Source: a virus. From it: 28,223 nucleotides of DNA. Location of the stretch: positions 1 to 28,223 of IMG/VR virus record IMGVR_UViG_3300047557_003198, one strand, 5' to 3'. The notes beneath the pieces are model-generated. The model was given only the letters and a program-made list of their open reading frames with translations, made no database searches and had not been told where the DNA came from. This document shows positions 13,175-18,614 of this stretch, one piece after another (position 1 is the first letter of the stretch; each line of letters begins with the position of its first letter). The translations under genes and the position numbers were made by a program.

Positions 13175-15052
13175 TTATGCAGCCTCACCCCAGCTTGGAC
13201 CAACTTCCACGTCCACGCGCGAGGGCACTTCCAGTGTCACCGCGTTGGCCATGATCCGTGATGCTTCGACCGCCTCGTCCCGATCCCGGACCGAGAGCGC
13301 GATCTCGTCGTGCACCTGCAGCCGGATGTCGAACCCGGCCTTGGCCAGCGCCACCATGCCCGCCTTGGTCTGGTCGGCGGCCGAGCCCTGGATGAGCCGG
13401 TTCAGGCCCTTGTAGGTGCCCGCCCGCTTGATGCGTCGGCCGTATTCGATGATGGCCTGCTCGTAGGGCAGCGCCTTGTTCACGCCCCACTCCACAGGCT
13501 CCCACAGCGGGAAGCGGCATTTGCGGCCCAGCAGCGTGCGGATCGCGCCGCCCGAGGCCGGGTGCTCGATGCGCTTCATCACCGCGTCCACCGTGCCGCG
13601 CAGGAACGGGACCTTCTGGTGGAAGGTGGCGATCAGCTCGCTGGCCTCGTCCAGGGGCAGCTCCAGGCTGTTGGCGAGCTTCTGTTTGCCCATGCCGTAC
13701 ATCAGGCCCAGGCCGATGGTCTTGGCAGCCTTGCGCTTAATGCCGGCCATGTCCGCGACCATCTGGTGGAAGTCGGTATTGGGGTCATCCCTATACGCCT
13801 GGGCCATCTTTTCAGCCCCCGGCAGGTCCAGCAGCGTGGCATAGTGGACCAGCAATCGCGGTTCCTGCGAGGAGAAGTCGTTTGCCGCCCAAAGCTGGCC
13901 CTCCTCCGGCAGGAACAGGCCCCGCACCAGCGGCCCGATCACCTCGTGGCGCGCGGGCACCTGCTGCAGGTTGGGGTTGGCAGCCGACAGGCGTCCTGTG
14001 ACCGTGCCGCCGTCCTCGTTGCGCATCTGGTTGAAGTGGGTGTGGATGCGCCCATCGGCCGCGCTGTGCTTGAGGTAGGGCTCCAGGAAGGTGCCGTGGG
14101 TCTTGTTCAGCTCACGGGCCTCCACGATCATCTTGGCCATCGGATGGTCGTGGGTGTCCAGGAAGCTCTTGGTAAAGCTGGGCGCGCCCTGCGCGGTCCG
14201 TGGGTACTGGATCGAGAGCTTGTCGAAGGCCTGCGCGATGCTGGCGGCGGCCCAGATGTCCACCTTCACGCCGGCCTGGTTCTTGATGTACTTGAGGATG
14301 TCCTGCTCCTTGCGACGCATCTCCTCCACCTGGCGCTCGCACTCCTCGCGGTTGAAGCGAATGCCCTTGAGCGTGATGTCCACCAGCACCGGCAGCACTT
14401 CGGTTTCCAGCTCGAAGATCGACTGCACCTCGTCGCGCTGCAGCAGGGCCTTGAAGTGGTGCCAGAGCTTGAGCGTGAGCGCCGCGTCCTGCTCGGCGTA
14501 CTCGCCCACGTGCATGGCCGGCAGCTTCCACAGCTCCTTTTTCGGGTGCACACCGAAGTCCGAGGCGGACTCCTTGAGACCCTGCTCCGACTTCACCTCC
14601 TTGAGGTAGTCGAAGCCCAGGCTGTTCAGGGCGAAGCTGAAGCGGTTCTCGTCCAGCAGGGGCGCTGCCAGCATGGTATCGAAGATGCGGCCGTTTACCT
14701 CGAAGCCGGAGGCTCTGAGCCACCCGAGGTCGTAGGCGGCGTTGTGCATGATCTTGTCAGCCGGCGTCGCCAATACCTCGCGAATCCAACGCTCGACAAT
14801 GCGCTTGTCCAGATTGCCGCCACCACCGTGAGCAACAGGAAAGTAGCCAGCCCAGCCATCAACAGCAACGGCATAGCCAACAATGTAGCCATCGTTCCGA
14901 GGCCAGCCCGGCCCCATGGTCTCCATGTTGGGGTCGCAGGTTTCGAGGTCAATTGCAATCTCCTTAGCTGTGGACAAGTTGGGGAAAATCTGTGGAGGAA
15001 CCCACTCGGATACCCGGGGGAACATGGACATGGTCCGTGTGTCGCGCTTCAT
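13175..15052 (-). CDS. polA: Family A DNA polymerase with 3'-5' exonuclease
   Basis: A 625-residue replicative polymerase of the Pol I family without the 5' nuclease domain. Exonuclease motifs: DLE (Asp35, Glu37), NAAYD (Asp108), YAEQD (Tyr185, Asp189). Polymerase: TGRLSAANPNLQQVPAR (352 to 368); motif A with Asp392 in NDFSSQEPR; motif B R440-K-A-A-K444-T-I-G-L448-G-L-M-Y452; motif C QVHDE (His581, Asp582, Glu583). All catalytic residues are present. Leu448 sits where E. coli Pol I has Phe762. The start shares ATGA with the helicase stop, so the two are coupled. It would copy the phage genome with the primase and helicases of the same cluster. Confidence 0.95.
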   Translation of the reverse strand: MKRDTRTMSMFPRVSEWVPPQIFPNLSTAKEIAIDLETCDPNMETMGPGWPRNDGYIVGYAVAVDGWAGYFPVAHGGGGNLDKRIVERWIREVLATPADKIMHNAAYDLGWLRASGFEVNGRIFDTMLAAPLLDENRFSFALNSLGFDYLKEVKSEQGLKESASDFGVHPKKELWKLPAMHVGEYAEQDAALTLKLWHHFKALLQRDEVQSIFELETEVLPVLVDITLKGIRFNREECERQVEEMRRKEQDILKYIKNQAGVKVDIWAAASIAQAFDKLSIQYPRTAQGAPSFTKSFLDTHDHPMAKMIVEARELNKTHGTFLEPYLKHSAADGRIHTHFNQMRNEDGGTVTGRLSAANPNLQQVPARHEVIGPLVRGLFLPEEGQLWAANDFSSQEPRLLVHYATLLDLPGAEKMAQAYRDDPNTDFHQMVADMAGIKRKAAKTIGLGLMYGMGKQKLANSLELPLDEASELIATFHQKVPFLRGTVDAVMKRIEHPASGGAIRTLLGRKCRFPLWEPVEWGVNKALPYEQAIIEYGRRIKRAGTYKGLNRLIQGSAADQTKAGMVALAKAGFDIRLQVHDEIALSVRDRDEAVEASRIMANAVTLEVPSRVDVEVGPSWGEAA

Positions 15053-16581
15053 AGTCGGAAGCCTTTCTGTTCATTCTTGGGAAGCACGATGTGCAGGGAC
15101 TGCTTTGCACGGGTGATGCCCACGTACAGCAGCCGGTTGATGTCGTCGGAGTTGCGCTCGTAGTCCTTGGCGAACTTGGTCGTCAGGTCCGCCAGCAGCA
15201 GCACGTTGTCGGCCTCGCCACCCTTGGCTCCGTGGATCGTGGAGAGCTTGATCGGGGCCTTGCCATTGAGCTTCACGCCCCGGCGCAGCAGCGAGATGAT
15301 GTAGTGGCGCTTGTCCTCGGCGATCTTGGTCAGGGCCTCGTGCCAGATTTCTGTAGAAAGAAGTCCGTGCTTTTCTTTCAGGAGATCGATGGTGTACAGC
15401 GCCCCAGGGTCGGCCGTCTTCAGGCCCTTGTGGCCGTGCTTGACGCAGTCGGTGTCCATGTACTTGTAGATGGCCTTGACCACCTCGAAGGGCACCTCGC
15501 CGCCCTTGCGCAGCCGCTCCCAGCCGAGCACGGCAGTGAGCACTGCCTCGGGCACGGACCGTTGGCCGTGGCGCTCGAACAAGAGCCCCTGGCTCTTCAA
15601 CCAGTCGTGCATGTCGGTGAGCATGTAGTTGGCCGCAGCCAGCACCAGCCACTCGCCATGGGAGACGTCCACGTGGTGCCAGTCGTTGTAGTACTCCACC
15701 ACGCCGGTCTCTTCGCGCGCCTTCCAGACCTTGGGCTGGCGCTTGCGGATGCGGCGCACCACGTTGTTGGCCAGGGCATGCACCTTGGCCGGCACGCGGT
15801 AGGACTGGTCCAGCACCTTGATCTCGCCTTCGAAGCTCAGGAAGCTGTCCACGTCGGCTCCTGCCCAGGTGTAGACGGCCTGGTCGTCGTCGCCTGCCAA
15901 AAACGAACGCTGGGAGCGCAGTGCCAACTGCTCAACCAGCCTCCATTGCAAACGTGAGAGGTCCTGCGCCTCGTCGATGATGAGAACGTCGAGCCGGGGC
16001 AGGCGGTCTGGCTCCAAGAGCACCTGCTCCAGGAGGTCAGTGAAGTCCAGCAGGTTGCGCGACTGCTTGTAGTGCCGGTAGGCGCGTTCCACGTACTCGA
16101 AGTGGAACCACTCCAGCTCCATGGCGGACTGATTGTAGTGGGTCTTCAGGTCCAGGCCCTTGATCCGTGCGATGTTGATCTCGTTGAGGATGGGGTTGTC
16201 CGCCTGCACCATGAAGTCGTCTTCGCCCTGGCCAACGCTGATCTCGATGCCGGCCTCCAGCGCAAACTCGCGGTAGTGCTCTGGCGTCATCATGTCTTTC
16301 GTGCCGATGCCAAGGCACCGGTAGGCCAGGCTGTGCAGCGTGCGAAACCACGGGAAGTCGCTGTCGGGGCGCAGTTGCGGGAACTTGGCCACGGCGCGGT
16401 CGCGTGCTTCGGTTGCGGCCTTCTTGGTGAAGGAGAAGTAGCCGATCTTGGTGGGGTGCACGTTGTCGGCGAGCTCCATCTCGACGACGTTGAGCAGGAA
16501 GGTAGTTTTGCCGCTGCCTGGTTAAGGGGGGCCGAAGACTTTGACGATCTTCGGCCCCATCTCCTTGTCAGATGTGTTCAT
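15049..16581 (-). CDS. UvrD/Rep-type SF1 helicase, interrupted at Walker A by TAA
   Basis: The ATG at 16581 opens with 19 codons ending VKVFGPP. Codon 20 (16522 to 16524) is TAA, and the same frame resumes at once with PGSGKTTFLL. Removing six bases gives GPPGSGKT, a perfect Walker A. The rest is intact: FTKKAA (Ia), DEAQDLS (about 203 to 209), GDDDQAVYTW (III), QSYRVP (IV), STIHGAKGGEADN (V), VGITRAKQS (VI), so a full SF1A 3'-5' DNA helicase is present except for this site. Translation from the next ATG (16479) would lack the ATP-binding loop and has no ribosome site. The gene may be broken, rescued, or misassembled. It overlaps the HNH gene by 14 nt and the polymerase by 4. Confidence 0.85.
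16528..16558. other. Perfect 11-bp hairpin beside the helicase stop
   Basis: GGGGCCGAAGA and TCTTCGGCCCC face each other across a 9-nt loop. The stem ends three bases from the TAA codon and encodes the GPK and FGP residues flanking the start of the P-loop. No T run follows, so it is not a typical terminator. Confidence 0.7.
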
Positions 16582-16984
16582 GTTGAGTGTCTCCATGCCA
16601 GCGTTCCATGCAGTGAATTCGAGCGTGTTCTGCTTGCGTCATCACTGCCAAGTTCTCTGGGCTGTTGTTCCACTTGTCCCCGTCCTTGTGGTGAACAATT
16701 TCACCCGGCAGTAAGGGACGGCCAAGTTTCTGCTCGGCAACGACACGGTGCATGTGTCTGCCTCCCAGTTTGACGTAGTTGGTTCGTTGGCCGCTGTATC
16801 GCAGTGCGTCTTTATCCCGAAACGCTGCGCGCCGGGCTTGTTCCTCTGCGTCGAGGAGACGACTGTTGTGGCCGTTGATGAACCGAAGAGGCTCACCTTT
16901 CTTTTGGCCGCGATTACTGCGTGTGCGCGTAGCAATGGGTGTCGGTAGCCCGCACCCACACTCGCAAAAAGTGGAGTTCGACAT
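16568..16984 (-). CDS. Free-standing HNH homing-type endonuclease
   Basis: A 138-residue protein. An N-terminal zinc knuckle (CECGCG, 8 to 13) is followed by the basic, Arg-rich FINGHN segment, then HRVVAEQKLGRPLLPGEIVHHKDGDKWNNSPENLAVMTQAEHARIH with the HNH core (HH about 98 to 99, Asn106/107, and the Asn-Leu of PENL). This is the common phage HNH layout, and all catalytic positions are present. AAGGGG stands before the ATG at 16984. It is placed between primase and helicase, like a mobile intruder in a replication cluster, and its end overlaps the helicase start. The 97 nt upstream to the primase (16985 to 17081) hold no gene I can support. Confidence 0.85.
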   Translation of the reverse strand: MSNSTFCECGCGLPTPIATRTRSNRGQKKGEPLRFINGHNSRLLDAEEQARRAAFRDKDALRYSGQRTNYVKLGGRHMHRVVAEQKLGRPLLPGEIVHHKDGDKWNNSPENLAVMTQAEHARIHCMERWHGDTQHEHI

Positions 16985-17081
16985 GGCTTTCCCCTTTCAA
17001 AGCCGCCCTGATGAAGAGGTTGACCAGGTGGCCAGGGAAACCACTTTTCACCCCGTCGGGCTAGGTCGATTTCAGTGTATC

Positions 17082-18614
17082 TCAAAACGGGCTCCTTGCT
17101 TTCTTCTGCTCAGGCGTCTCGAAGGGCGAATCCTGCTTGCCAAACATCGGCATGCGCCAGCAGCGTGCGGTGCGGTTTTTGAGGAAGAGGCTGATCGGCT
17201 CCCCGCCTAGCTCGCGGATGCGCTGGGCCATCTTCGGGTGCGTCATGCCCTTGAAGTTGTTGCGCGTGAGGTGGGCTTCGAGGTCCTTCATGCGGAAGTA
17301 GACCTTGGCCTCGTCCTCGTTCACCCAGGGCCGGCCCATGAGAATCTCATCGCGGTCCATGGCCTGTTGCATGTGGGTCGTGAACTCTTCGACCAGATCA
17401 TTGAAACGTCCAGTCAGGCTGGTGTCCTCGGGCGCTTCAGTGATCTGTTCACTCTCGACCATCTCACGAAGCAGGGCGTTGAGGAGCTGCTCCCAGTCTT
17501 GCTTGCGCAGTGTCGGAGGCAGCACGTTGATCTTCTCGACGCAGGCCTTCTGGAAAGCCGATTGGTTGTACAGCGCCTCGGTGTCGAGCTCGATGCGCTT
17601 GCCGTTGATGTCCAGGAACCACAGAGGCGGCTCGCTGTTGTACTTGGACAGGGATGAAAGCTGTGGTGCGTCAGGACCGTCCGCACCGATACCGTACTTG
17701 CGGGTTCTGCACAGACCACTGTTGCAGAAGCTGTTCAAGGGCGCGTCCTTGCACTTGTACTTGTAGTCTTTCTTGTGGAGCTGCTTGATGATGACCTGCA
17801 GCTCGTTGTTGGGGAGCATTGGCTGCACGAACTTCACGTTGTGCTCGGCCAGTTCGTTGTCCCAGGTCGCGGGCTTGGCTCGCTTGAGGAAAATACCAAT
17901 GTTGAACAGGGCGTTGTTGCGTGTCCCCTCGGGGACGCCTTGAGCGCAGATAGCCTGTAGGCATGGTGGGCCGTCCTTGATGGGGTGATCGGGTTTCTTG
18001 GGTTCTTCCGGTGGCTGGATGTCAGGCGGCTGCACCCACTTGGCGTGCAGCTCGTAGAACTCCTCCAGCGTCGCCGCCGTGCCATCGTCTTGGATGGCGT
18101 AGCGCATGGTCTGATCCCCACCGAAGTACGGCAGGTTCAGGAAGTTGCCGGTGTCGCCCCGCTCGACCAGAATTTCGGCCTGCTTGGGAAAAATCTCGCG
18201 CCCTGCCTCGCCCAGCAATGCTGCACAGGCCTTGAGGTAGCGCTGCATGTTGGCGGCCGGAATCGGCTCGCTTACGAACAGGAAAACGTGCGCACCACCA
18301 CTCTTGCTGCGGCATACCACCAGCGGCAAGTTCATCTCGCGGATGCGCTTGATCAGCCCCTGGTGATCCAGCGGGTACTGGTCAATGTCAATGCAGCCCC
18401 AGATGCACGTGTTGTCCGCCCGAATCGGAATGATGCCAAGCGAGGGATCAATGCCCTCCAGGTGCTTGGTCCACAAATCATCCGTCGGTGGCTTGCGCAC
18501 CACGACCGCTTTGCCGGCTTGTTTGCCGCTCTCCTTGGACCCCTCGATCTTGTAGGTTCCGTATGCAATATCGAGTCCGCTGAATATCGCCTTGAACCGC
18601 GTGATGTCTGTCAT
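17082..18614 (-). CDS. Archaeo-eukaryotic-type primase (PrimPol-like)
   Basis: A 510-residue protein of the AEP superfamily, resembling the primases of TOTE-type and phage systems. The first 200 residues hold the active site: WGCIDID (Asp76, Asp78) and SKSGGAHVFLF (His109). Then come GNFLNLPYFGGDQTMRYAI, which follows the core in this family, a Pro-rich linker, and a Cys cluster KCKDAPLNSFCNSGLCRTRKYG (about 283 to 305) that looks like a zinc site and matches the conserved 'C....C..RK.G.G' end of these primases. The C-terminal region may contact the helicase. It would make primers for the family A polymerase. AAGAAAGAAG precedes the ATG at 18614. No DnaG-type primase is seen. Confidence 0.82.
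   Translation of the reverse strand: MTDITRFKAIFSGLDIAYGTYKIEGSKESGKQAGKAVVVRKPPTDDLWTKHLEGIDPSLGIIPIRADNTCIWGCIDIDQYPLDHQGLIKRIREMNLPLVVCRSKSGGAHVFLFVSEPIPAANMQRYLKACAALLGEAGREIFPKQAEILVERGDTGNFLNLPYFGGDQTMRYAIQDDGTAATLEEFYELHAKWVQPPDIQPPEEPKKPDHPIKDGPPCLQAICAQGVPEGTRNNALFNIGIFLKRAKPATWDNELAEHNVKFVQPMLPNNELQVIIKQLHKKDYKYKCKDAPLNSFCNSGLCRTRKYGIGADGPDAPQLSSLSKYNSEPPLWFLDINGKRIELDTEALYNQSAFQKACVEKINVLPPTLRKQDWEQLLNALLREMVESEQITEAPEDTSLTGRFNDLVEEFTTHMQQAMDRDEILMGRPWVNEDEAKVYFRMKDLEAHLTRNNFKGMTHPKMAQRIRELGGEPISLFLKNRTARCWRMPMFGKQDSPFETPEQKKARSPF

Follow-up and report, generated by a model that had tools for sequence, protein, structure and literature searches.

The window analysed here is a 28,223-base virus record of IMG/VR in which a helicase gene is read on the minus strand. 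From the ATG at 16581 the helicase frame encodes MNTSDKEMGPKIVKVFGPP, meets a TAA at 16524-16522, continues as PGSGKTTFLL... and is then open down to a stop at 15049. An earlier note on this DNA had described an in-frame TAA and six extra bases in the Walker A codons of a UvrD-type helicase, close to a C/G run, a hairpin and a neighboring HNH enzyme. The interruption was confirmed in the minus-strand reading, the run and the hairpin are both present as described, and Pfam profiles identify the two proteins. The last codon before the stop is referred to below as the take-off codon and the triplet after the stop as the landing triplet. The features of the locus, all on the minus strand, are as follows.

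17082..18614, minus strand: primase-like gene (AEP-TOTE, 52.3 bits), the upstream flank, which by alignment to the relative L002 ends at the start of the cassette
17006..17071, minus strand: int-alpA RNA (Rfam RF02996, 45.5 bits; gathering score 35.8), directly 5' of the HNH gene
16568..16984, minus strand: HNH endonuclease gene, 138 amino acids, with its end just within the helicase start (Pfam HNH_3, 58.9 bits)
16525..16581, minus strand: 5' coding segment of the helicase, MNTSDKEMGPKIVKVFGPP, 19 codons, with its ATG at 16581
16561..16566, minus strand: AAGGAG, Shine-Dalgarno-like by sequence and with a putative role as such, directly 5' of the hairpin
16529..16557, minus strand: hairpin with an 11-bp stem, from the predicted fold, its 3' end one base ahead of the take-off codon
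16525..16527, minus strand: take-off codon CCT (Pro), the final codon of GPP
16522..16524, minus strand: in-frame stop TAA, directly 3' of the take-off codon
16519..16521, minus strand: landing triplet CCA, where tRNA-Pro is predicted to re-pair (CYN in 35/35 loci, with third-base covariation)
15049..16518, minus strand: remainder of the UvrD-like helicase, GSGKTTFLL..., 489 codons, open to its stop (Pfam UvrD-helicase, 107.1 bits)

The stop TAA and the landing CCA are together predicted to be six undecoded bases within the helicase gene of the window. Between the stop and the codons of Walker A, the frame contains none of the start codons ATG, GTG, and TTG. The exact 21-mer of the interrupted site has one occurrence in the record. 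An Rfam search of positions 16400-17200 at E-values up to 1 returned no intron family, its sole match being the int-alpA RNA.

The best 80 of 148 helicase relatives from IMG/VR were compared with the window. Among these 80, three loci (L006, L011, and L020) share the type of N-terminus, the hairpin and an in-frame stop at the same codon, this stop being TAA in L006 and TAG in the other two, whose helicases are ∼80% identical to that of the window. L002 and most of the other relatives in this set have an unbroken GPPG(S/T/A)GKT. Virus sequences were also searched with a degenerate pattern consisting of GPP, TRR, any codon and G-x-x-GK-T, which permits TGG in place of a stop and any codon after it. 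All 43 viral loci that matched encode UvrD-like helicases of the form GPP-stop-(L/P)-G-x-GKT; a genuine stop is always present, TGG never, and the stop is always followed by C-C-N or C-T-N. A control pattern allowing any six bases matched 72 loci, namely the same 43 and 29 more, and none of the 29 was a helicase in translation. Because these extra loci gave no helicase, six-base inserts at this Walker A site were found only with a stop. The UvrD-helicase profile matched all six UvrD-type proteins checked (the window, L083, L086, L103, L158, and L166). In GTDB, all 30 matches to the UvrD-type pattern were due to chance, and in named phage records all 14 helicase relatives have an uninterrupted motif.

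Including a second helicase family described below, we found 43 distinct UvrD-type and nine SNF2-type gapped sites, including sites in four named phage records and in five bacterial genome assemblies. On the sequences compared, the interruption in the window is far beyond chance. The earlier note had doubted that it was ordinary gene decay, and this doubt holds, as the gaps recur in dozens of contigs and the downstream helicase is kept. A real lesion, a population variant and an assembly error, all of which the note had left open, are contradicted by the dozens of contigs and equally by the four named phage records and five bacterial assemblies. The note had also reasoned that a related genome without the insertion would make it an assembly error, which is too simple, since close relatives exist both with and without the gap, a pattern also known from mobile elements. 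These comparisons indicate that the stop and six bases of the window are neither a lesion nor an assembly error. The stop is probably one of many tiny inserts skipped by the ribosome, often beside a homing gene, rather than damage.

With the window included there are 44 sites with a six-base (+6) gap, of which 35 remained after those >95% identical downstream had been dropped. The position of the stop is constant across the 35 but its identity is not (TAA 13, TGA 13, TAG 9). The landing triplet is CYN throughout, with C as first base in 35/35 and a pyrimidine as second base in 35/35. The third bases of the take-off and landing codons are identical in 22/35 sites against 11.8 expected, a count reached in none of 20,000 shuffles; the shuffle tests ignore relatedness, which dereplication lessens only in part. 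Dereplication at 85% gave 22/32 third-base matches (10.96 expected) and at 75% gave 18/27 (9.2 expected). Taken alone, the CTN landings match in 16/22 sites (8.3 expected), and the CCN landings in 6/13 (3.8 expected), which is not significant (p 0.11). Within the 35 loci a landing CTT is found only alongside a take-off CCT, and CCA is never found alongside CTG. CCC, the commonest codon at this place in ungapped relatives, is used for take-off in 0/35 gapped loci versus 55/153 ungapped relatives with GPP (p 1.8e-6). The middle U of the landing triplet can form a G-U wobble with the middle G of the Pro anticodon. We read these codon rules as the pairing rules of a peptidyl-tRNA-Pro, in which a middle G-U wobble would be allowed and weaker pairing at take-off preferred.

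Hairpins were counted at dereplicated UvrD-like +6 sites with at least 45 nt of upstream sequence, leaving out L083 and L092, which are cut short there. In 33/33 of these sites the bases ending 3-5 nt ahead of the stop pair with an upstream 5' arm, although the pairs come from single-sequence folds and such counts lean towards pairing. Measured against dinucleotide shuffles, the gapped sites have a mean z-score of −4.06, with 30/33 below −2, versus a mean of −0.05 and 0/60 below −2 for the ungapped set, which comprises the first 60 relatives with GPP and was not dereplicated. The mean fold energy is −24.0 kcal/mol for 41 gapped loci, a set that includes six loci with other gaps and the short-cut L083 and L092, versus −12.0 kcal/mol for 56 ungapped loci. 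Pair types vary on both sides of the stem: at position −4 they are GC 11, AT 11, and CG 3, and at position −10 they are GC 23, AT 6, GT 3, and CG 1. A Shine-Dalgarno-like motif is present no more than ∼70 nt ahead of the stop in 28/33 loci; with a wider expression, it starts 41-57 nt ahead of the stop in 30/35. In some loci this motif also serves a start codon within the hairpin.

An in-frame start lies upstream of the gap in all 35 dereplicated loci. The part downstream of the gap is 480-492 codons long in 24 of them; five are cut by contig ends (L082, L101, L109, L112, and L113), and the remaining six have other downstream lengths, from 459 to 961 codons. Comparison of the downstream helicase of the window with that of L097 gave a dN of 0.013 and a dS of 0.166. 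Across the 25 pairs with usable dS, from 41 pairs at ≥70% protein identity, the median dN/dS is 0.17 and the highest 0.31. The low ratios and the retained length argue that the downstream part is kept as a helicase by purifying selection.

Gaps of other lengths were sought by a pattern with 0-30 free bases and by helicase searches without a stop requirement. The pattern gave 20 extra loci, of which eight are real (L154, L156, L158, L160, L166, L168, L169, and L172) and twelve are chance matches; among the latter, L159, L162, L163, and L165 were rejected as natural starts or intact motifs. The UvrD-type gaps of other lengths are listed here, with the landing place deduced from the motif.

CCG TAAT CCT, +7: L160, L169, and L172
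CCG TGAC TCG, +7: L168
CCG TAATT TCG, +8: L158
CCA TGATG CCG, +8: L166
CCG to ACA, +5: L156
CCT to ACA, +13: L154
ACC to GCC around a 6-bp stem, +10: L231
GGT to GAC, +4: L249

In each of these a skip from the pre-stop codon to the triplet ahead of the next Walker A codon restores the exact motif. The gaps in these homologues of the +6 sites are of 4, 5, 7, 8, 10, or 13 nt. A +1 frameshift could formally account for the 4-nt cases, but would lengthen the motif by one residue. In L231 (2485-2506, GGCACC-TGAA-GGTGCC) the take-off codon, stop and landing triplet lie within one perfect small hairpin, like the take-off stem-loop of T4.

The second helicase family came from a viral scan with the HNH protein as query, which gave 12 loci. 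In L387 and L388 an HNH relative lies upstream of an SNF2-type helicase that reads LDMGLG, TGA, GKT. The gap is GGT TGA GGT (+6), with a perfect match between take-off and landing. The Pfam domain SNF2-rel_dom is present in L387, L391, L395, and L426. An HNH relative is also found directly upstream of the SNF2-type helicase in Paenibacillus phage Pd_22F (GGT TA GGT, +5), in Ruminococcus phages NatCom_23091 and NatCom_29429, which are alike here (GGT TGAC AAA, +4; the source of the NatCom record is human feces), and in Glutamicibacter phage Montesquieu (ATG TAG CTA ATC, +9). Of the five named phage records with an HNH gene upstream of an SNF2-type helicase, these four are gapped; the exception is Corynebacterium phage StAB, in which the helicase is unbroken. 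StAB (L393, 2219-2900) has an altered motif, GLGMGKT in place of DMGLGKT, a change that might likewise abolish the cutting site. In the NatCom phages the HNH match (L391/L392, 2233-2761) is split into two pieces and two annotated genes, and the gene may be decayed or may itself need recoding.

A DMGLG-stop pattern was run over 391 and 398 bacterial genomes. It matched 27 distinct places, five of them real (L400, L409, L418, L419, and L423) and 22 due to chance, and the take-off codon is GGT in all five real cases. An HNH gene lies upstream in five of the nine SNF2-type cases (L387, L391, L395, L423, and L426); in the other four (L400, L409, L418, and L419) none was seen in the 1.5 kb upstream. 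No common 5' hairpin is evident before the gaps of the SNF2-type group, which suggests that its stimulators differ. The 5-nt gaps of L395 (2886), L400 (1516), and L409 (1516) resemble tandem copies (TTAGGT-TAGGT, TTAGG-TTAGG), as if produced by fill-in of a staggered cut.

The 35 +6 sites, eight other UvrD-type sites and nine SNF2-type sites together make 52 distinct cases. The take-off residue is Pro in 41 of them, Gly in nine, Thr in one, and Met in one. Skips not divisible by three occur in 15 of the 52; the downstream frame equals the upstream frame in the +6 and +9 cases, to which the window belongs. A stop directly 3' of the take-off codon was imposed by the search for most cases, but it is also present in L231, L249, L387, L391, L395, and L426, which were found without a stop requirement. 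A single tRNA could read both the take-off and the landing codon in the +6 loci. The agreement is weaker in some of the other gaps, in which the landing triplet pairs at two of three positions: ACA (L154 and L156), GAC (L249, the NatCom phages, and L419), AGC (L423), and ATC (Montesquieu).

The earlier note had suspected the adjacent HNH gene, and this suspicion holds too. For 148 dereplicated helicase loci with at least 700 nt of upstream sequence, drawn from three helicase searches, tblastn detected an HNH gene within 1 kb upstream in 8/15 gapped versus 0/133 ungapped loci (Fisher 1.4e-9, not corrected for relatedness). The four HNH queries all came from gapped loci. The independent Pfam profile HNH_3, applied to the same 148 records, again found eight gapped and no ungapped loci within 1 kb; anywhere in the record it matched 10/15 gapped and 20/133 ungapped loci. 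One ungapped locus, L286, has an HNH_3 match ∼1.0-1.1 kb upstream, just beyond the limit. A loose HNH motif scan of 139 upstream open reading frames of ungapped loci gave eight weak matches, none of them HNH-like by eye. The HNH family of the window is also found directly upstream of many other gaps, and the HNH genes beside the gaps of L166 and L156 are too distant to be detected with the HNH protein of the window (L156, HNH_3 31.2 bits; L166, HNH_3 and NUMOD4 both below cut-off). No HNH gene was seen in the available upstream sequence of 7/15 gapped loci. Gapped loci of this kind, for example L006, are consistent with an endonuclease that was lost later, or with a gap acquired by itself.

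The int-alpA RNA (RF02996) was also found directly 5' of the HNH gene in nine of 11 HNH-bearing loci tested besides the window (L082, L086, L088, L091, L093, L095, L109, L110, and L119). This RNA family may often be part of the HNH cassettes. At L094, where no HNH gene was seen, a Mom-family protein (Pfam Mom, 67.6 bits) is encoded 645-39 nt upstream of the gap.

The distribution of the gap was mapped on a helicase tree of 161 proteins, 40 of them gapped, from which three gapped proteins of <150 amino acids had been left out. The tree requires 32 changes of label, 23 of them forced by well-supported branches, versus 36 for shuffled labels; it was built with FastTree, which gave a long-branch warning. 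The ungapped L002, L301, and L337 are 96.4, 97.9, and 98.7% identical to their gapped partners over 900 nt downstream. Such close pairs with and without the gap differ by a block of ∼540 nt holding the RNA and the HNH gene, and in a recoded helicase start. Identity or near-identity returns ∼20 nt past the gap, most clearly in L119/L337. Presence and absence in close alleles, with flanking sequence carried, is seen in L119/L337, L088/L332, L116/L323, and L121/L316.

The best explanation of the locus, which we regard as very likely, is that TAA-CCA is a minimal programmed ribosomal bypass site, a reading absent from the options of the earlier note; the gap and the HNH gene would form a homing cassette. 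Bypassing is suggested because Walker A codons flank an in-frame stop with no start codon between them, because the pre-stop codon and the post-stop triplet obey the pairing of one tRNA, because a conserved hairpin ends just ahead of the take-off codon, and because the downstream helicase is under purifying selection and the gap often accompanies an HNH gene. Release after Pro or Gly is reported to be slow in vitro (PMC7246954, citing Pierson 2016); in the same paper a C-terminal Pro left expression without significant change, and only PP lowered it. With release slow after Pro, the ribosome would pause while Pro-tRNA sits on CCU and the A site holds UAA. The peptidyl-tRNA-Pro would then leave CCU, the mRNA would advance by six bases, and the tRNA would re-pair at CCA. 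Decoding would restart at GGC, yielding GPPGSGKT with Walker A intact. Only one base separates the stem from the take-off codon, so the hairpin could close only as the mRNA moves on. Its re-folding behind the ribosome may help the hop, and the Shine-Dalgarno-like AAGGAG perhaps does so too. For T4 gene 60 it has been proposed that a stem-loop on the 5' side re-zips and thereby tugs the mRNA along (PMC5009743, PMC11194080).

As to the gain of the cassette, the sequence coding for Walker A in ungapped phages would be the cutting target of the HNH enzyme, and the gap would destroy this site. Walker A codons would be present in every target, and an insert there would be tolerable only if it were removed. 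Bypassing would remove six bases without an intron or an intein, and so would allow an essential motif to be interrupted without harm to the protein, as proposed for T4 mobA/gene 60.

Other explanations account for part of these data. In programmed readthrough a near-cognate tRNA would decode UAA, and two extra residues would stay in the P-loop, as the earlier note correctly remarked. A C after the stop is a leaky stop context, and C follows the stop in 35/35 dereplicated +6 loci, a class that is in frame. Nevertheless, all three stops are used, and readthrough predicts neither the constant pyrimidine at the second base after the stop nor the third-base covariation with the Pro codon. Moreover, Walker A would have its first glycine shifted by the two extra residues, and readthrough cannot serve the 15 of 52 distinct cases in which the frame shifts. 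We consider it very improbable. Removal of the gap before translation, whether by RNA processing, polymerase skipping at the hairpin or excision at the DNA level, appears very improbable. The hairpin beside a short C run is compatible with polymerase slippage, but a stop placed directly after take-off and flanking codons that follow tRNA pairing are features read only by the ribosome, and skips of 4 to 13 nt occur without a visible splice signal or, around the window site, an intron family.

It is still harder to envisage two products, with a leader peptide ending in GPP that regulates a helicase starting after the stop. A Pro ending is reported to stall termination (PMC7246954), and a start codon exists downstream of the gap, at 16479. 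However, a helicase made from 16479 would lack Walker A, and conservation in the downstream frame extends to the Walker A codons even though no in-frame start precedes them after the stop; the covariation of take-off and landing codons is also left unexplained. Least credible of all is a dead gene or a wrong sequence (lesion, decay or assembly error) with the HNH gene as a mere neighbor. The close ungapped helicases of L002, L301, and L337 could be taken in its favor, yet it is at odds with 43 distinct UvrD-type and nine SNF2-type gapped sites, with the 480-492 downstream codons kept in 24/35 sites and with the low dN/dS.

Three further candidates were rejected. An intron whose 5' exon would lie beyond the HNH gene was dropped, as the DNA upstream of that gene showed no exon coding for KVFGPP and Rfam gave no intron. 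An alternative genetic code is ruled out by the use of all three stops at the same place. Initiation at the post-stop codon is ruled out because this codon is CCN or CTN and covaries with the pre-stop codon.

The bypass reading can be compared with known systems. In common with T4 gene 60 and mobA, the sites have a stop directly after take-off, take-off and landing codons that match, a stem-loop on the 5' side, a neighboring HNH gene and relatives free of the insert (PMC3014915, PMC5009743, PMC11194080). They differ from T4 gene 60 in that the skips are of 4-13 nt instead of 50 nt, and in that take-off is from Pro or Gly, 9-51 codons from the farthest in-frame start found. In addition, a stem around the stop was seen only in L231, and many phage lineages are involved. 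The window site would work like gene 60 but is not classed as the same element, as judged by gap length and the take-off stem-loop. In the "stop hops" of the laboratory a peptidyl-tRNA likewise jumps a single stop and lands on a similar codon, so that nine bases yield one residue (PMC5009743); those sites were engineered, whereas the sites here are natural and have a hairpin. According to passages of that 2016 review, no natural in-frame stop hop was known, and shorter relatives of the gene 60 bypass had long been presumed (PMC5009743). The mitochondria of Magnusiomyces capitatus also skip many short coding blocks with loose codon matching, but that system is mitochondrial and its bypassing seems independent of mRNA context (PMC5009743). 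Mycobacteriophage Corndog has an HNH gene beside a tape-measure gene that seemingly needs bypassing or an odd start; that case concerns another gene, and the passages on it describe no family of short gaps (PMC4351075). Among the open PMC papers listed by the literature searches, we found no published account of gaps such as those described here.

Group I introns and inteins with homing endonucleases insert into conserved motifs of phage genes, are removed harmlessly and vary in presence between close relatives. The gaps are likewise inserts in a conserved motif whose presence varies between close relatives. Unlike introns and inteins, they show nothing that points to RNA or protein splicing, the insert is of six bases, and the endonuclease gene lies outside the interrupted motif. 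Phages likely have, alongside introns and inteins, a third class of insertion that conceals itself and is widespread: endonuclease-linked gaps placed within Walker A codons in two or more helicase families, where a stop-hopping ribosome would hide them by skipping 4 to 13 bases. This class would include the first natural in-frame stop hops. Next to T4 gene 60 it would be the second bypass system of phages and by far the larger, having arisen or been transferred many times and using several tRNAs (Pro, Gly, and probably Thr and Met). In L103 (3900-5267, minus strand) an intein-like insertion, as judged by eye, seems to be present at the DE(C) motif too, which would give this helicase two kinds of insert. 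The SPO1 intein lies elsewhere in its gene.

The sites amount to dozens of candidate stop hops; the codon rules are clear, the hairpin is conserved and gap-free relatives serve as natural controls. Some of the candidates are in named phages. With them one can test directly what causes a ribosome to let go, how it selects its landing triplet and whether homing endonucleases are what brings bypassing into being. Gene-calling programs miss the Walker A portion of gapped helicases: in Pd_22F, Montesquieu and the NatCom phages the deposited annotation begins the helicase gene 3' of the gap.
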